Below, piece after piece: positions 35,147 to 46,588 of a DNA stretch of 64,000 nt. The notes beneath the pieces are model-generated. The model made no database searches. It was not told the origin of the DNA and saw nothing but the letters and a program-made list of their open reading frames with translations. The DNA comes from Paraburkholderia sp. Tr-20389. Lineage in GTDB: Bacteria > Pseudomonadota > Gammaproteobacteria > Burkholderiales > Burkholderiaceae. The translations under genes and the position numbers were made by a program. The first letter of the stretch is position 1, and each line of letters starts with the position of its first letter. The DNA lies in contig NZ_JAAGPD010000009.1 of NCBI RefSeq assembly GCF_017104565.1, positions 62,001 to 126,000 of the forward strand, written 5' to 3'.

Positions 35147-36472
35147 ATGTCTTACTTCGAACACTTGCCCGCTGTGCGCTACGAAGGCCCGCAGACGGAC
35201 AACCCGTTCGCTTATCGCCACTACGACAAGGACAAGCTGGTGCTCGGCAAGCGCATGGAAGACCATCTGCGCGTTGCCGTGTGCTACTGGCACACGTTTG
35301 GATGGCACGGCGCGGACATGTTCGGCCCCGGCACGTTCGAGCGTCCGTGGCACCGTGCCGGCGATGCGCTCGAAATGGCGCGTGCGAAGGCCGACAATGC
35401 GTTCGAACTGTTCTCGAAACTGGGTACGCCGTACTACACGTTCCATGACATCGATGTCGCGCCCGAAGGCGACAGCATCAAGAGCTACGTGAACAACGTC
35501 AAGGCGATGACGGATGTGCTCGCGCTCAAGCAGGAGCAGACGGGCATCAAGCTGTTGTGGGGCACGGCGAATCTGTTCTCGCATCCGCGCTATGCGGCGG
35601 GCGCGGCGACCAATCCGAATCCCGATGTGTTCGCGTTTGCCGCCACTCAGGTCTTTAACGCGCTCGAAGCGACGCAGCGTCTATCCGGCGCGAACTACGT
35701 GCTGTGGGGCGGACGCGAAGGCTACGAGACGCTGCTCAATACGGATCTCAAGCGCGAGCGCGAGCAGCTTGGCCTCTTCATGAGCATGGTGGTCGAGCAC
35801 AAGCACAAGATGGGTTTCAAGGGCGCGCTGCTGATCGAGCCGAAGCCGCAGGAGCCGACCAAGCATCAGTACGACTACGACGTTGCGACGGTGCATGGCT
35901 TTCTCACCCAGTTCGGCTTGCAGGACGAAATTCGCGTGAACATCGAAGCGAATCACGCGACGCTCGCCGGTCACTCGTTTCATCACGAAATCGCCAATGC
36001 GTTTGCGCTCGGCATCTTCGGCAGTATCGACGCGAATCGCGGCGACGCGCAGAACGGCTGGGACACGGACCAGTTCCCAAATAGTGTGGAAGAACTGACG
36101 CTCGCGTTCTACGAGATCCTGCGCAATGGCGGCTTCACGACGGGCGGCATGAACTTCGATGCGAAGGTCCGACGTCAGAGCATCGATCCCGAAGACATCG
36201 TGCATGGCCATATCGGAGCGATCGACGTACTCGCGGTGGCGCTCGAGCGTGCTGCGCATCTGATCGAGAACGACCGGCTTGCCGCGTTCAAGCAGCAACG
36301 CTACGCGGGCTGGGACAGCGACTTCGGACGCAAGGTGCTGGCGGGCGGCTATTCGCTCGAGTCGCTGGCAAGCGATGCCGTAGCGCGGAACATCGCGCCT
36401 CGTCATGTGAGCGGACAACAGGAGCGTCTGGAGAACATCGTCAATCAGGCGATCTACTCATCCGCGAAATAA
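35147..36472 (+). CDS. xylA: Xylose isomerase
   Basis: A 441-aa enzyme converting D-xylose to D-xylulose in the cytoplasm. Catalytic His at about 100 and Asp at about 103 lie in [11 protein letters not shown]. Metal-ligand motifs are [33 protein letters not shown] and [17 protein letters not shown]. The length fits class II xylose isomerases. CAGGAG lies 6 nt before the ATG. It is divergent from xylR and followed by the xylFGH transporter genes; no xylulokinase gene is seen in the locus. Confidence 0.97.
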
Positions 36473-36503
36473 CGCATCCACGCAGCACGAAAAATCGTTA
36501 GCA

Positions 36504-36536
36504 GCGCCGGTAGATTTCGCAATTGCTCCGCCGGCG
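36504..36536. promoter_or_regulatory. Candidate XylR operator 2 (upstream of xylF)
   Basis: The core GATTTCGCAATTGC at 36513-36526 is identical to operator 1, with GCCGG (36506-36510) and CCGGC (36531-36535) as an inverted pair centred on the same base step of the core. It lies 150 bp ahead of xylF, so xylFGH likely has its own XylR-controlled promoter. I see no gene in 36473-36685. Confidence 0.7.
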
Positions 36537-36685
36537 CGCACGGCACACGCTGACGTGCAACCAAAACTGGGGCAGCTTTCGACAATCGACGCTCGCGAAC
36601 AGGTATTCGCGGCGCATCCTGAGGTTAAGACGGCGGTTCGATTTCTCGCATTCGAAACCGCACGCAACCCTAAATGGAGTGAGAC

Positions 36686-37714
36686 ATGAAATCTGCAATG
36701 CGCCGTTCCGTATTGAGTTCCCTCGTTTGCGCCGCGATGGCCGCCGGCCTGACGATGATTGCGCCGCTCGCGCACGCGAGCAAGGACAAGCCCGAAATCG
36801 GCTTCTGTATCGACGATCTGCGCGTCGAGCGCTGGTCGCGCGATCGTGACTATTTCGTTGCGGCTGCGACGAAGCTCGGCGCGAAAGTTTCCGTGCAATC
36901 GGCCGATGCGAGCGAAGCGCGGCAAATCTCGCAGATCGAGAATCTGATTTCGCGCGGCGTCGATGTGATCGTGATCGTGCCGTTCAATTCGAAGACGCTC
37001 GGCAATGTCGTCGCCGAAGCGCACAAGGCGGGCATCAAGGTCGTGTCGTATGACCGCCTGATTCTCGATGCCGATGTCGACGCCTATATCTCGTTCGACA
37101 ACGAGAAGGTCGGCGAACTGCAGGCGCAAGGCGTCTATAACGCGCAGCCGAAGGGCAACTACTTCCTGCTCGGCGGCGCGCCGACCGACAACAACGCGAA
37201 GATGCTGCGCGAAGGGCAGATGAAGGTGCTCAAGCCCGCGATCGATCGCGGCGATGTGAAGATCGTCGGTCAGCAGTGGGTGCCGGAATGGAGTGCCGCG
37301 ACGGCGCTGCGCATCACGGAAGATGCGTTGACCGCGAACAACAACAAGATCGACGCGATCGTCGCGTCGAACGACGGTACGGCAGGCGGCGCGATTCAGG
37401 CGCTGGCCGCACAGAAGATGGCGGGCAAGGTGCCCGTGTCCGGCCAGGATGCGGATCTTGCGGCCGTCAAGCGTGTTGTAGCGGGTACGCAGACGATGAC
37501 TGTCTACAAGCCGCTGAAGCTGATCGCCGGCGAAGCAGCCAAGCTCGCCGTCGATCTCGCGAAGGGCGACAAACCCGCATACAACGCGAAGTACGACAAC
37601 GGCAAGAAGCAGGTCGATACCGTGCTGCTGCAACCGACACTGCTCACGAAGAGCAACGTCGACGTCGTGATCAAGGACGGCTTTTACACGCAAGCGCAAC
37701 TGGCTGGCAACTGA
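36686..37714 (+). CDS. xylF: D-xylose ABC transporter substrate-binding protein
   Basis: A 342-aa periplasmic binding protein with a Sec signal ([21 protein letters not shown], cleavage near residue 31). The mature start [21 protein letters not shown] is typical of XylF. Other motifs are [40 protein letters not shown] and [16 protein letters not shown]. It delivers xylose to XylGH. The start has GGAG 9 nt upstream. Confidence 0.95.
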
Positions 37715-37790
37715 TTGCGGGCACGGGCGCTTCCTCGTCTTCATGACGGGAAAGCGCCCGCGCATCTTTCATCCATCCAGGACATTACGC

Positions 37791-39368
37791 ATGGCACAAG
37801 CGCTTCTGGAGCTGCGCGGCATCGCCAAATCGTTTGCCGGGGTGAAGGCGCTCGACGGTATCGATCTCGTCGTCGCCCCCGGCGAATGCGTCGGACTATG
37901 CGGCGAGAACGGCGCAGGCAAATCGACGCTGATGAAGATCGTCTCCGGCGTCTATCCGCACGGCGACTGGTCGGGCGAGATTCTTTGGGACGGCAAGCCG
38001 CTCGTCGCGCAGAACATCCGCGATACCGAACGCGCGGGCATCGTCATCATCCACCAGGAACTGATGCTCGTGCCGCAACTGTCGGTGGCCGAGAACATTT
38101 TCCTCGGTAACGAAATCACGCTGCCCGGCGGTCGCATGAATTACGCGGCGATGTACCAGCGCGCCGATGAGTTATTGCGCGAACTCAACATCACCGGCAT
38201 CAATGTCGCGCAGCCGGTGATGAACTACGGCGGCGGGCATCAGCAACTGATCGAAATCGCCAAGGCGCTGAACAAGCAGGCAAAGCTGCTGATACTCGAC
38301 GAGCCTTCTTCATCGCTCACTGCTGCTGAGACGACAATCCTGCTCGATATCGTGCGCGATCTGAAGAAGCGCGGCGTCGCCTGCGTGTACATCTCGCACA
38401 AGCTCGACGAAGTGGAAGCCGTATGCGACACGATCACCGTGATACGCGACGGCAAGCACGTCGGCACGCAGCCGATGAAGCAGCTCACCACGGATCGCAT
38501 CATCGCGATGATGGTCGGGCGCGAGATCGCGAATCTCTTTCCGCACGAGCCGCATGACATCGGCGATGTGATCTTCGAGGCACGCAACGTCACCTGCTAC
38601 GACGTGACGAACACCAACCGCAAGCGCGTCGACAATGTGTCGTTCGCGTTGCGCAAGGGCGAAATACTCGGCGTGGCGGGTCTGGTCGGCGCGGGGCGCA
38701 CGGAGTTGATGCAGGCGATCTTCGGCGCGTATCCGGGCATGAGCGAAGCCGAAGTGTGGATGGACGGCAAGCGCCTGAAAATCCGCGCGCCCGCCGATGC
38801 GATTTCCGCAGGCATTGCGATGGTGCCCGAAGATCGCAAGCGTCACGGCATCGTGCCGCAACTGGGCGTGGGTCACAACATCACGCTCGCGGTGCTGCAA
38901 CGCTTCGCGAAGGGCGGGCGCATCGATACGGCATCCGAACTCGATACGATCAACTCGGAGATGAAGCGCCTGTCGGTGCGCGCGGCGTCGCCGATGCTGT
39001 CGATCGCGAGTCTGTCGGGCGGCAACCAGCAGAAGGCGGTGCTCACCCGCATGCTGCTCACCCATCCCTCCGTGCTGATACTCGACGAGCCGACACGCGG
39101 TGTCGATGTCGGCGCGAAGTACGAAATCTACAAGCTGATGTTCGCGCTCGCGAAGCGCGGCGTGTCGATCATCATGGTGTCGTCGGAATTGCCGGAAGTG
39201 CTCGGCGTGAGCGATCGCGTGCTCGTGATCGGCGAAGGCGAACTGCGCGGCGACTTCGTCAATGAAGGGCTCACGCAGGAACACATTCTCACGGCTGCCA
39301 TCGCGACGAATCCGAAAGGCGCGAACATCCACGGCAACGACCCCACTCAACTGGCGAGCGTCGCATGA
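37791..39368 (+). CDS. xylG: D-xylose ABC transporter ATP-binding protein
   Basis: A 525-aa ATPase with two fused ABC domains. Domain 1: Walker [11 protein letters not shown]-loop [10 protein letters not shown], Walker [12 protein letters not shown]. Domain 2: signature [15 protein letters not shown] and Walker [13 protein letters not shown]. As usual in this family, the second Walker A is degenerate ([11 protein letters not shown]). I chose the ATG at 37791 with AGGA 9 nt upstream over an in-frame ATG at 37743. Its stop overlaps the xylH start (ATGA). Confidence 0.95.
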
Positions 39369-40561
39369 CTCCTGATCTCACTTCTTCCGATAGCCAGACC
39401 AGGCACGGTACCGCGCTTGCCTCGGGGCAACGTATCAAGCTGCTGTTCGCGCGCTACAAGCTGCTCGCGTTGCTGCTGGCCGTCGCCGTCATCTGGGTGT
39501 TCTTCTCGTTCCTCACGGAAGGCGCATTCGTCACGCCGCGCAATCTGTCGAACCTGCTGCGGCAGATGTCGATCACGGGGATGCTCGCATGCGGGATGGT
39601 GTTCGTCATCATCGCGGGCGAGATCGACCTGTCCGTCGGTTCGCTGCTTGGATTGCTCGGCGGCGTCGCGGCGATACTCGACGTCACGTATCACTGGCCG
39701 CTCGCGGCAACGCTGCCCGTCGTGATGCTGCTCGGCGTGGTCGTCGGGCTCTTCAACGGGTGGTGGTCGACGTATCGGCGCGTGCCGTCGTTCATCGTCG
39801 GACTGGGCGGCATGCTCGCGTATCGCGGCGTGCTGCTCGGCATCACGGGCGGGTCGACGATCGCGCCGGTGTCCGACAATTTCGTCTTCATCGGTCAGGG
39901 CTACTTGCCGCGTATTGCGGGCGACACGCTCGCCGTCGTGCTGTTCGTGCTGCTCGCGGCGCTGACCGTGCGGCAGCGGCAAAAGCGTCAGCACTACAAG
40001 TTGAGCGTCGTGCCGGTGTGGCAGGACGCGGCGAAGATCGTCGCGGCGGGGCTGATCCTGCTCGCGTTCGTCGCGACGCTCAACCGTTACGGCGGTATTC
40101 CCGTGCCCGTGCTGCTGTTGCTTGCGCTGCTCGGCGTCTTCACGTACATCGCGACGCAGACGGTGTTCGGCCGGCGCATTTATGCCGTCGGCTCGAATCT
40201 CGAAGCGACGCGTCTGTCGGGCGTCAACACGAACCGCGTGAAGCTCGCGATCTTCGCACTGATGGGGCTGATGTGCGCATTCGGCGGCCTCATCAATACC
40301 GCCCGGCTCGCGGCGGGCTCGCCGTCGGCGGGATCGATGGGCGAACTCGATGCAATCGCGGCGTGCTTCATCGGCGGCACATCGATGCGCGGCGGTTCGG
40401 GCACCGTCTACGGCGCGTTGATCGGCGCGCTCGTGATGGCGAGCCTCGACAACGGCATGTCGATGCTCGATGTCGACTCGTACTGGCAGATGATCGTGAA
40501 GGGCGGCATTCTCGTGCTGGCCGTGTGGATCGACGTGATCTCGGGGTCCGACCGGCGGTAG
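39365..40561 (+). CDS. xylH: D-xylose ABC transporter permease
   Basis: A 398-aa inner-membrane permease of the RbsC/XylH family with about ten predicted helices. Motifs: [28 protein letters not shown] and [25 protein letters not shown] near the start. Near the end are [19 protein letters not shown] and [34 protein letters not shown]. It is coupled to xylG by a 4-bp overlap and ends the xyl operon; a terminator follows. Confidence 0.95.
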
Positions 40562-40569
40562 CGCAGAGC

Positions 40570-40584
40570 GCACGGCGGTGGTGC
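40570..40584. promoter_or_regulatory. Possible NtrC-type enhancer site
   Basis: GCAC-N7-GTGC (GCAC 40570-40573, GTGC 40581-40584) matches the NtrC half-site arrangement known from glnA. It lies about 240 bp upstream of the predicted sigma-54 start site. This is a single weakly specific match, so confidence is low. Confidence 0.3.
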
Positions 40585-40796: not shown

Positions 40797-40811
40797 TGGC
40801 ATACCTATTGC
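40797..40811 (+). promoter_or_regulatory. Sigma-54-type promoter
   Basis: TGGCATACCTATTGC matches the sigma-54 pattern with GG (-24) and GC (-12) exactly 12 bp apart. Transcription would begin near 40823, right at the base of the first leader hairpin. Sigma-54/NtrC control is usual for nitrate-assimilation genes. Confidence 0.7.
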
Positions 40812-40824
40812 GTTAATCCGTCGC

Positions 40825-40979
40825 GAAGCCAACGGCGGCTTCGACGTATCGACGAATTTTCGGGCACGCTCGCGACGCGAGCGGTCCCATGGGGCAACGG
40901 CGTCCCGAAGTGCAACGTGCGAGGAGCGTTCGATCCATGCGATCGGGCGACGCACATGCGCTTCGGGACGTTTTTTTTT
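40825..40979 (+). ncRNA. ANTAR-type antitermination leader RNA with terminator
   Basis: P1 is a 7-bp stem CGAAGCC/GGCTTCG (40825-40831, 40838-40844) with hexaloop AACGGC. P2 is a 5-bp stem GGGGC/GTCCC (40891-40895, 40902-40906, one G-U) with the same AACGGC loop. Both loops have A at position 1 and G at position 4, as known for RNA targets of ANTAR-domain antiterminators. The right arm of P2 lies inside the left arm of a terminator, CGTCCCGAAG (40901-40910) pairing with CTTCGGGACG (40961-40970), followed by nine Ts. P2 and terminator are therefore mutually exclusive. A further hairpin, CGCTCG/CGAGCG, sits in the linker. Confidence 0.72.
40901..40979 (+). terminator. Leader terminator with nine-T tract
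   Basis: A perfect 10-bp outer stem (CGTCCCGAAG with CTTCGGGACG), an inner GTGCG/CGCAC helix and a CGATC/GATCG top hairpin, then TTTTTTTTT at 40971-40979. It stands 37 bp before the next gene and shares its left arm with antiterminator hairpin P2. Confidence 0.85.
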
Positions 40980-41016
40980 GCGCAACCGAAACACGCGCAT
41001 CGACGCGACCAGCGCT

Positions 41017-41778
41017 ATGAACGAGCAGATCACCACGCAACGTATGGAAGTTTCCGGACAGACGATCGGCGAGCTGATCAATCTGTCGGGCCGTCAGCGG
41101 ATGCTGTCGCAACGCATCGTGCTGCATGTGCTGCTTGCATCGCACGGCGATGCGGCGGCGCTGGCGGTCGTGCGCGAATGCCTCGTGACGTTCGCGTCGA
41201 CGCATCGCGTGCTGGTGCATGGCGACGAGCGTCTGCCCGGCGCGTTTTCGGAGGCGTTGCAGCAGCTCTACTACGGCACGCGCAAGGCCGACGAGCGGGT
41301 GCAGCGATTCATCGCGCTCACGGATGAAACGGTGACGCGCGTCGATGCTAACGATGACGCGACAAGCGAATATGTCGATGCGCTCGTCGCACAAGCGACG
41401 CCGCTGCTCGAACTGCTGCAGGAGATCACGCTCGCGTATCAGAACGAGATGCGCGGCATCGAAGCGGCGACGCAGCGCCGTCAGTCTGCGATAGCAGAAC
41501 AGCTGTCGAGCATTTCGATGCAGGCGAACATCGTCGCCTTGAACGCACGCATTTCGGCAGCACGCGCCGGCGCTTACGGACGTGAGTTCGCCGTCATCAC
41601 GCAAGTGCTCGCCGACATCATCAAGGAGATGGACGCGCTCATTTATAGCGTCGTCGATCGCGGCGCGGACGAGCCGGCTTCGCGCCGCGATGTGTCGCGC
41701 AAGGCGTCGCATGGAGCAGCGCAATTGTCCTCACGCCCGCACGTCACCGCACGCAGTACCCAACGCATATCCCCTTAG
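41017..41778 (+). CDS. Soluble PilJ-type sensory-domain protein with MCP-like tip (candidate nitrate sensor)
   Basis: A 253-aa protein with no membrane segment or signal peptide. The N-terminal half resembles the PilJ/NarX-type sensory domain, with the P-box-like INLSGRQRMLSQRI at about residues 21-34. Residues about 168-201 (MQANIVALNARISAARAG, then FAVITQVLADI) look like the hairpin tip of a methyl-accepting chemotaxis protein. The long coiled coil, HAMP and methylation helices of a real MCP are missing. The Arg/Ser-rich tail from about 215 looks disordered. It is the first gene after the antitermination leader and 58 bp before a nitrate-type transporter. The ATG at 41017 lacks a strong ribosome-binding site; a TTG at 40978 is inside the terminator region and unlikely. 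A role as nitrate/nitrite sensor is inference. Confidence 0.7.
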   Translation: MNEQITTQRMEVSGQTIGELINLSGRQRMLSQRIVLHVLLASHGDAAALAVVRECLVTFASTHRVLVHGDERLPGAFSEALQQLYYGTRKADERVQRFIALTDETVTRVDANDDATSEYVDALVAQATPLLELLQEITLAYQNEMRGIEAATQRRQSAIAEQLSSISMQANIVALNARISAARAGAYGREFAVITQVLADIIKEMDALIYSVVDRGADEPASRRDVSRKASHGAAQLSSRPHVTARSTQRISP

Positions 41779-41836
41779 TTCTTCTTTGTTTGCCGGACCC
41801 ACGCACCAGCCTGCTTTCGTTCAATGAGAGAGACCC

Positions 41837-43234
41837 ATGAAAAACCTGTTGAATTCGCTTGCGAGCGGTAACTGGCGCGCGCTGCTCGCGTGCTTCCTTT
41901 ACTTCGATACCGGCTTCACCGTCTGGGTCATGTTCGGGCCGCTGGCGCCGTTCATCAACAAGAGCATCGCGATGTCGCCCGCCGAACTGGGCTTTCTCGT
42001 CGCGGTGCCCGTGCTCGGCGCGGCGATCCTGCGCGTGACGCTCGGCAATCTCTATCAGGCTTGCGACGGTCGACGCGTGGCGCTGATGGGCGTCGCGCTG
42101 TCGGCGATTCCTTCCGTCGTGCTGCTGCTGATGCCGGGCACGCCGTCATACACGTTGCTGCTGATTCTCGGCGTGTTCCTCGGCGTCGGCGGCGCGAGCT
42201 TCGCGGTCGCGCTGCCGATGGCGGGCAGCAACTATCCGCCGAAAGTGCAGGGCCTGGTGCTCGGCCTCGCGGCCGCCGGCAACATCGGCGCAGTGCTGGA
42301 CGGCTTCATGTTCCCGGCACTCGCCGATCAGTTCGGCTGGGCGAAGGCTGCGGGCGCAGCGTTGCCGCTGCTGGGTCTCGCTGCCGTCGCGCTGTTCTTC
42401 TGGGCCAAGGATCTCGGACAGAAGACGGGCAGCGGTGCACAGGCGCTGCGCAGCTTCATCGTGACGCTCGTGGGTCTCGTCGCGCTCGTCGTCGCCGTGC
42501 ATGCGGGCGTGTTCGGTGCGGGCAAGACGGGCGTGCTGCTGCTGCCCGTGCTCGGCGCGCTGCTCGCGATCGCCGTGCTGCCCAAGCACTATCGCAGCGT
42601 GCTCGTCGAGGGCGACACGTGGGTCGTGATGCTGGTCTACAGCATTACGTTCGGTGGCTTTGTCGGCATGTCGTCGTATGTGACGACGCTGCTGATCTCG
42701 CTGTATCAGATGCCGCGCCTCGAAGCGGGTCTCTTCATGTCGCTGCTGGCGTGTATCGGTGCGCTGGTGCGTCCCATCGGCGGGCTGGTCGCGGATCGTA
42801 TTTCGGGTGTGCGTGCGCTGGTGATTCTGCTGGCGGCGATCTCGCTGTGCGACTTCCTGTTCGCCGCGTGGATGCCGCCTGTGTCGGCGGGCATCGCGTT
42901 GCTGATCGCGATGTACGTGTGCTTCGGTCTCGGCAATGGCGCGACGTTCCAGCTCGTGCCGCAGCGCTGGAAGGGCAAGACGGGCCTGATGTCGGGCATC
43001 GTCGGCGCGGCGGGCGGCATCGGTGGATTCTATCTGCCTGTGATCATGGGCATTGCTAAGGAAGGCACGGGCAGCTATCAGATGGGCTTCGCGACGTTCG
43101 GCGTGCTGTCGGCGCTCGCGTTCGGTCTGGTGGTGCTGCATCGCGCGCGGTGGCTGGAATGGGCGCTGCCGAAGGAAAGCGCCATGGTTGTCGAGCCGAT
43201 TCGCGCAGGCGTGAGCGTGGACAGCGGGGCTTGA
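41837..43234 (+). CDS. NarK/NasA-type nitrate/nitrite MFS transporter
   Basis: A 465-aa inner-membrane protein with about 12 helices. Nitrate-porter features are VMFGPLAPFINKSIAMSPAE in the first helix pair, GGASFAVALPMAGSNYPP, and GLAAAGNIGAVLDGFMFPAL. The second nitrate signature region is GLGNGATFQLVPQRW and GIVGAAGGIGGFYLPVIMG. These Gly-rich repeats are characteristic of the NNP family. It would import nitrate for assimilation. No nirBD or nasA reductase genes follow in the window. It shares the sigma-54/leader-controlled transcript with the sensor-like gene upstream. Confidence 0.88.
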   Translation: MKNLLNSLASGNWRALLACFLYFDTGFTVWVMFGPLAPFINKSIAMSPAELGFLVAVPVLGAAILRVTLGNLYQACDGRRVALMGVALSAIPSVVLLLMPGTPSYTLLLILGVFLGVGGASFAVALPMAGSNYPPKVQGLVLGLAAAGNIGAVLDGFMFPALADQFGWAKAAGAALPLLGLAAVALFFWAKDLGQKTGSGAQALRSFIVTLVGLVALVVAVHAGVFGAGKTGVLLLPVLGALLAIAVLPKHYRSVLVEGDTWVVMLVYSITFGGFVGMSSYVTTLLISLYQMPRLEAGLFMSLLACIGALVRPIGGLVADRISGVRALVILLAAISLCDFLFAAWMPPVSAGIALLIAMYVCFGLGNGATFQLVPQRWKGKTGLMSGIVGAAGGIGGFYLPVIMGIAKEGTGSYQMGFATFGVLSALAFGLVVLHRARWLEWALPKESAMVVEPIRAGVSVDSGA

Positions 43235-44612: not shown

Positions 44613-44903
44613 ATGAACCTTCGTCCTTTGCATGATCGCGTGATCGTCAAGCGTCTGGATCAGGAAACCAAGACCGCATCGGGCATCGTGATCCCCGACG
44701 CAGCCGCAGAAAAGCCGGATCAAGGCGAAGTGCTGGCTATCGGCCCGGGCAAGCGTGACGACAAGGGCGCTCCCATCGCGCTCGACGTGAAGGTCGGCGA
44801 CCGCGTCCTGTTCGGCAAGTACGCAGGCCAGACCGTCAAGGTCGACGGCAACGAACTGCTGGTGATGCGCGAAGAAGACATCATGGCCGTTGTCAACAAG
44901 TAA
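44613..44903 (+). CDS. groES: Co-chaperonin GroES
   Basis: A 96-aa heptameric lid of the GroEL chaperonin. Features are [18 protein letters not shown], the mobile loop [22 protein letters not shown], and [25 protein letters not shown]. The length is standard. GAGAGGATC lies before the ATG. It is under the CIRCE operator and 44 bp ahead of groEL. Confidence 0.98.
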
Positions 44904-44944
44904 GCACTTGTTCCCGGTTCATTCTCAAGAATTCAAGGAGTTAG

Positions 44945-46588
<1,644 letters not shown>

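Follow-up and report, generated by a model that had tools for sequence, protein, structure and literature searches.

A candidate nitrate-responsive ANTAR-type antitermination leader with widely spaced hexaloops upstream of a PilJ-domain gene in Paraburkholderia

Introduction

Antitermination by ANTAR proteins at nitrate-assimilation genes has been described for NasR at nasF of Klebsiella and for NasT at nasA of Paracoccus. In Paracoccus, nitrate releases NasT from NasS, and NasT then binds the nasA leader (PMC3795266). NasR selects two hairpins with a C-G closing pair and with A and G at loop positions 1 and 4 (A1/G4), and binds the pair better than the second hairpin (P2) alone (PMC7496416). 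Here we analyse a leader at positions 40797-40979 (plus strand) of a 64-kb stretch of DNA from Paraburkholderia sp. Tr-20389 (the window), where a sigma-54 promoter, two hexaloop hairpins and an intrinsic terminator precede the genes of a protein with a PilJ domain and a methyl-accepting chemotaxis protein (MCP) signalling tip, and of a NarK-type transporter. The leader is a long-spaced variant of the known ANTAR switch type, and it is very probably a nitrate-responsive antitermination leader following the NtrC/sigma-54 and NasT logic.

Organisation and folding of the leader

The sigma-54 promoter of the TGGCAT-N5-TTGC type (40797-40811, plus strand, as all features of the leader; box TGGCATACCTATTGC) was identified by sequence reading and from alignment columns, and counting 12 nucleotides (nt) from the -12 C places the predicted transcript start at 40823. 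The first hexaloop hairpin, P1 (40824-40843; 7 bp; loop AACGGC at 40831-40836), seen both in the fold and in covariation, begins at approximately +2. The second one, the antiterminator P2 (40891-40906), has a GGGGC/GUCCC stem of 5 bp, including one G-U pair, and the same loop AACGGC at 40896-40901. Between them the linker hairpin test described below yielded an intermediate hairpin, Px (40867-40883; 7 bp; loop GAC), which can be extended to 40862-40888. The intrinsic terminator (40901-40979) consists of the arms 40901-40913 and 40958-40970 followed by nine T at 40971-40979, and the right arm of P2 is a part of its left arm. Sequence reading thus confirmed two claims of the original prediction, that two AACGGC hairpins start from the predicted sigma-54 transcription start and that P2 shares bases with the left arm of a nine-T terminator; Px, an NtrC-type dyad (40570-40584) and an N-box-like sequence in the first gene are additional to it.

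We defined the full geometry as a pair of stems, each of 5 bp or more and capped by an A..G.. hexaloop, plus a T tract and a terminator using the right arm of P2. It occurs once in the window, both strands considered, and never in 2000 mononucleotide-shuffled leaders; the dual hexaloop by itself was obtained in one of 2000 leader shuffles. A coding origin of the leader was rejected, because the open reading frames that cross it arise by chance and the pattern of covariation is that of an RNA.

The fold energy of the leader is -83.4 kcal/mol (z -4.48), and none of 200 shuffles is as low. The default fold is the terminator (-82.7 kcal/mol), whereas enforcing P1 and P2 yields -73.7 kcal/mol, so that the terminator is favoured by 9 kcal/mol. 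Folding with and without the P1/P2 constraint, a check proposed in the original prediction, hence produces mutually exclusive P2 and terminator folds, as expected for an ANTAR leader in which P2 overlaps an intrinsic terminator. The computed folds of leader prefixes ending at 40912, 40940 and 40960 contain P2, and those of prefixes ending at 40970 and 40976, the terminator.

Conservation among related leaders

Relatives of the first gene were collected from named genomes (46 loci, of which 43, L003-L045, were used) and by a search of 200 genomes of the family. In 38 of the 43 named loci we found the sigma-54 box, a P1 stem of 4 bp or more, and P2 together with a T tract (four T only in L032). 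Three more, L024-L026, have a single A-C mismatch in P1; L036 retains just P2 and the terminator, and the partial match L044 has no leader elements. The family genomes, partly the same as those of the named set, contributed 30 loci, 26 of them with the arrangement (L057 via the leader model R1); in L061 and L078 a leader of this type was not found. L059 and L060 retain both hexaloops but have no T tract, possibly pointing to another output, e.g. translation control.

The alignment A1 comprises 54 Burkholderiaceae leaders. It omits exact duplicates, L040 and L071 (shorter linkers), L059 and L060 (hexaloops, no T tract), L036 (no recognisable sigma-54 box or P1), L044, L061 and L078, as well as L057, which was not scanned in place due to a wrong start coordinate and was recovered by R1. 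Among these leaders, all having A..G hairpins, both loops have A1 and G4 without exception (54/54 rows), while the other positions of the P1 loop vary, so the loop conservation that the original prediction had proposed to examine is indeed observed. A C-G pair closes each loop in all rows (columns 34-41 and 113-120), and thus the leaders have both the two A1/G4 hexaloops and the closing pair of the rule derived for NasR by systematic evolution of ligands by exponential enrichment. The fraction of paired cells is 94.8% in P1, with double-sided changes in five of six pairs, 92.6% in P2, and 95.2% in the terminator, with double-sided changes in 8 of 13 pairs; the terminator covariation score, 0.434 against 0.194 in shuffled alignments, was reached in none of 500 shuffles.

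A second sigma-54/P1/P2 leader of the same genome (L092 / L110; C19:855435-855529, minus strand) has a 31-nt linker, no spacer hairpin and a weak T tract, and is followed by a gene for a putative transporter, by nirB and by a gene for a molybdopterin nitrate reductase. Orthologs of this transporter provided 30 loci (the narK-nirB group), where P2 is present in 30/30 and both hairpins in 24 (linkers 31-53 nt).

Promoter

The sigma-54 box columns T1, G2, G3, C4 and T12, T13, G14, C15 are invariant in the aligned rows, and in all 54 the distance from the box to the P1 loop is 17-19 nt, which bears out the promoter spacing originally proposed. At 40570-40584 (plus strand), 227 bp upstream of the box, there is a dyad GCAC-N7-GTGC, which we take to be an NtrC site on the basis of the NtrC consensus. 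This dyad occurs at most 400 bp upstream of 27 of the 41 leaders of the window's group (shuffled expectation 0.44) and upstream of all 30 narK-nirB leaders (0.52), as compared to 0-3 occurrences of dyads with other spacer lengths. The shorter dyad was used because the full-length consensus, TGCACC-N5-GGTGCA, is barely above shuffles (9.2 vs 8.0 matched letters). At the sequence level, the -24/-12 box and the upstream dyad together have the form of an NtrC/sigma-54 promoter. In Burkholderia cenocepacia, nasT, nirB and a nitrate transporter fall in an ntrC mutant (PMC5491218).

ANTAR proteins

The original prediction placed the cognate ANTAR protein outside the window. The genome does encode a receiver and ANTAR protein of the NasT type, adjoining an NMT1_2 protein of the NasS type, and elsewhere a second ANTAR protein of the AmiR type. 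Among the 200 family genomes, a NasT match (E of 1e-33 or better) was found in 134 and an R1 hit (E up to 0.01) in 119: both are present in 112 genomes, the leader only in 7, NasT only in 22, and neither in 59 (Fisher test, 3e-24, not corrected for relatedness). A first-gene match with E not above 1.2e-39 is found in 31 genomes, and each of these also has a NasT match. Five of the seven leader-only genomes have another ANTAR protein: in G002, G069, G089 and G190 (loci L162, L166, L164 and L163, respectively) these are NIT-ANTAR proteins as in NasR; the fifth genome is G023.

Relation to the narK RNA family

The Rfam family RF03032 (narK RNA) matches the window at a permissive threshold with 28.5 bits, under the gathering score of 43.2, and at gathering there is no match in the window nor in the 19 related loci searched. 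The family consensus contains the letters of the sigma-54 box, a hexaloop corresponding to P1, and a 3' stretch annotated as unpaired; this stretch, CGAC-AAAGAC-GUCG, can form a second A..G.. hexaloop, that is, an unannotated P2. At E of at most 0.001, 274 genomes of the class yielded 13 matches in 12 genomes, two of them above gathering. Of the 13 matches, 11, including both above gathering, are dual hexaloops whose linkers measure 2-15 nt; no dual hexaloop was found in the RF03032 hits L086 and L087. Leaders of this type stand before nitrate genes, and the top match sits directly after nasS-nasT and before narK. In the genome of the window, RF03032 at E up to 10 gives ten hits, of which two are leaders (L092, L093); four examined of the other eight (L094-L097) have no dual hexaloop. 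Thus, judging by its consensus and matches, this orphan cis-regulatory family looks like a sigma-54 promoter combined with the dual-hexaloop motif. A literature search gave no mention of an ANTAR interpretation of RF03032 among the papers listed, which did not include the presumed source paper of the family.

Regulatory model and its alternatives

We propose the following model. Under nitrogen limitation, NtrC and sigma-54 RNA polymerase would initiate transcription near 40823, and the nascent RNA would fold P1, Px, and then P2. If nitrate is absent, NasS would hold NasT, the terminator would displace P2, and transcription would stop at the T tract. Vice versa, if nitrate is present, the freed NasT would bind the hexaloops and keep P2 closed, allowing for readthrough into the PilJ/MCP-tip gene and narK.

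Several observations weigh against this model. The leader prefix ending at 40920 has a computed fold without P2. The hairpin scan sought only A..G loops, so the alignment covers loci with loops of this kind, and the invariance of A1 and G4 holds for leaders with such hairpins. Covariation, which the original prediction had suggested to look for in both stems, is found in P1, but in P2 it is low (one of six pairs, in one row), because the right arm of P2 doubles as a terminator arm; in the terminator itself, one measure out of five does not stand out, as 103 of 500 shuffles reach the count of doubly changed pairs. The co-occurrence statistics of the leader and NasT ignore kinship; 22 of the 200 genomes have a NasT match and no R1 hit under strict filters; and no ANTAR protein was found in the R1-positive genomes G060 and G173, both with weak R1 hits (E 0.0074 and 0.0013, respectively). 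Finally, the P1-P2 linker is 48 nt here instead of the 5-12 nt of EutV leaders, and lengthening of a EutV linker by 20 nt abolishes antitermination in vitro (PMC3369931, PMC8934654).

The 5-12 nt rule comes from EutV, not from NasT. For EutV, the same papers report lower induction in vivo if the linker is cut to 3 nt or extended to 14 nt (PMC3369931, PMC8934654), and the motif definition of Ramesh 2012 allows for a variable linker (PMC3369931). Thus, from the ANTAR-target geometry originally claimed, the dual hexaloop and the mutual exclusion of P2 and the terminator stand, whereas the linker is far outside the EutV working range.

The linkers are long throughout (41-55 nt across the alignment A1, 31-53 nt in the narK-nirB group), and this suggests another possibility, that P1 and P2 are not a working pair: P2 would be the sole antiterminator, and P1, a recruitment hairpin or a hairpin protecting the 5' end. 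The 41-55 nt linkers speak for action of P2 only, and the position of P1 at approximately +2 suits the role ascribed to it; still, P1 retains A1/G4 in 54/54 rows and its stem covaries, hence its protein-binding features are selected. In six of the 30 narK-nirB leaders P2 is present and P1 is not called by the scan rule. The literature likewise points both ways: Walshe 2022 reports that an ANTAR dimer touches a single hexaloop at one time (PMC8934654), whereas NasR, as mentioned above, prefers the pair (PMC7496416). On balance, we consider a lone P2 possible but rather doubtful, and retain the two-hexaloop NasT switch as the preferred reading.

The intermediate hairpin

Px was called where the linker contains a hairpin with a stem of 5 bp or more whose end is no farther than 8 nt from P2. 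The test omits the rows dropped from A1, L136 (the linker is that of L134), L172 (the P2 loop starts with G), L175 (a 1-nt linker), L177, and the six loci of the narK-nirB group in which P1 was not called (L113, L121, L122, L124, L133, L137). Such hairpins occur in 75 of 89 linkers (shuffled mean 14.2) and, after clustering at 70% identity, in 26 of 35, with the mean of 5.8 and the maximum of 12 over 200 shuffles. The enrichment holds separately in the PilJ and narK-nirB groups, and is not clear in the third leader group alone (5/10 clusters vs 2.0). It is therefore unlikely that Px arises by chance from GC-rich sequence and that the linker length is meaningless, although 14 of the 89 linkers, including that of the second leader of this genome, lack Px by the rule used, and simple compaction is not maximised: after folding, 15.7 nt of the linker remain unpaired, compared to 10.2 nt in shuffled linkers. 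Since the folded linkers keep more, not less, unpaired nucleotides than the shuffled ones, the explanation of Px solely by linker compaction is unsupported, and we suggest that Px is a positioned spacer or a kinetic element beside P2.

Other exceptions are L171 and the short linkers of L040, L071 and L175. The linker of L171 is 37 nt without Px, and those of its sisters L168-L170 are 55-56 nt with Px, making a natural deletion experiment. L040 and L035, both from Cupriavidus numazuensis, are two copies of the PilJ/MCP-tip gene, with a short-linker and a long-linker leader, respectively. Px is not a third hexaloop, as its loop in the window is GAC rather than A..G..; the intermediate hairpin is such a hexaloop in L174 only, so that this leader contains three. 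The 5' part of the linker is AT-rich (GC 0.45 vs 0.67 for the remainder); a search for a shared motif there yielded weak words only, e.g. GTATT (10/53 vs 1.1 expected).

The last alternative, a constitutive terminator with hairpins conserved for another protein or a small RNA, leaves room for the second, AmiR-type ANTAR protein, as the binding of NasT to the leader is a prediction, but it is highly improbable given the ANTAR signature (invariant A1/G4 in a P1 loop varying elsewhere, and the C-G closing pair), the co-occurrence with NasT, NasR-type proteins in four exceptions, and the related RF03032 leaders before nitrate genes, one of them right after nasS-nasT.

Genes behind the leader

The first gene (41017-41778, plus strand) encodes a 253-aa protein with a PilJ domain, containing the N-box-like sequence INLSGRQRMLSQ, and an MCP signalling tip. 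The second (41837-43234, plus strand) encodes a NarK-type nitrate/nitrite transporter of the major facilitator superfamily (PF07690), with 251.1 bits (E 1.7e-74) against TIGR00886, below the model cut-off of 311.7. The PilJ-type and NarK-like genes of the original prediction are thus both present in the window, but NarK is not a regular partner: it is on the same strand in 23 of the 43 named loci (in L005 and L008, 1.4 kb away) and was not found in the other 20 within flanks of, as a rule, about 4 kb (shorter in L037). A further PilJ-like motif is found in the next gene at least in L031, L039 and L040. The usual first gene of the window's leader group is that of the PilJ/MCP-tip protein. A NarK-like gene directly follows the leader in L168-L171, from four genomes of another genus, and other leaders precede NrtA-like genes; therefore, the leader is a movable module.

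The N-box pattern [IVL]-[ND]-x-A-G-x-Q-R-M-L-[ST]-Q does not match the first-gene protein, where INLSGRQRMLSQ has S for A. Among 37 orthologs it is exact in 11; with A, S or G permitted at this position, all of them match. The protein is similar in sequence to MCP tips (E 6e-10) and to McpN (E 2.3e-4). Its structural model has a mean predicted local distance difference test score of 83, and the N-terminal half resembles 6GCV (template modelling score 0.73 by target length; Foldseek E 0.21). Since its single hydrophobic stretch is borderline (1.81; family maximum 2.16), the protein is presumably cytoplasmic.

A groES-groEL-like pair is located shortly downstream (44613-46588), and xylose isomerase-like and sugar ABC transporter-like genes, by translation reading, upstream (35147-40561).

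Discussion

Taken further, these leaders may represent a Burkholderiaceae three-hairpin ANTAR antiterminator, with hexaloops 58-72 nt apart (loop to loop) and a spacer hairpin stacked by P2, to which the EutV spacing rule would not apply in the case of NasT and NasR; narK RNA would be its short-linker form, and one group would target a nitrate-sensing chemoreceptor-like protein. We advance this generalisation tentatively, as a real possibility, and with much less assurance than the assignment of the leader itself.

If true, the cell would make the nitrate sensor only under nitrogen limitation in the presence of nitrate. An orphan Rfam family would gain a mechanism, the sigma-54 promoter plus the ANTAR dual hexaloop, and a PilJ/MCP-tip protein with a nitrate-binding-like box would be placed in the NasT regulon, tying nitrate assimilation to sensing or taxis. 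Natural linker variants from 1 to 61 nt in related genomes, with and without the spacer hairpin, make the disputed ANTAR spacing rule testable, and in some leader-bearing genomes NasR-type proteins may be standing in for NasT.

The protein of the first gene shares with McpN of Pseudomonas aeruginosa the N-box region with the key arginine, the combination of PilJ and an MCP signalling part, and the 6GCV-like N-terminal half. It differs by the A to S replacement in the N-box, by the absence of clear transmembrane segments and of periplasmic placement, and by having a short C-terminal tip only. Its gene is predicted to be induced by nitrate, whereas the mcpN transcript drops with nitrate.

The leader resembles RF03032 in the sigma-54 letters, the P1 hexaloop and the second A..G.. 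hexaloop of the consensus, but the linkers of narK RNA are 2-15 nt, and the window scores below its gathering threshold. With the eut leaders controlled by EutV (Ramesh 2012, Walshe 2022) it shares the dual hexaloop, the loop rule and the exclusion of P2 and the terminator; those leaders belong to Firmicutes and ethanolamine genes, and have 5-12 nt linkers, longer ones failing. The closest likeness is to NasR/nasF of Klebsiella and NasT/nasA of Paracoccus: two A1/G4 hexaloops, the overlap of P2 with the terminator, nitrate-assimilation genes, a NasT- or NasR-type protein, and Ntr control on top. In contrast to these systems, the linker here is 41-55 nt and contains an intermediate hairpin, and the usual first gene of this leader group encodes not an assimilation enzyme but a PilJ/MCP-tip protein.

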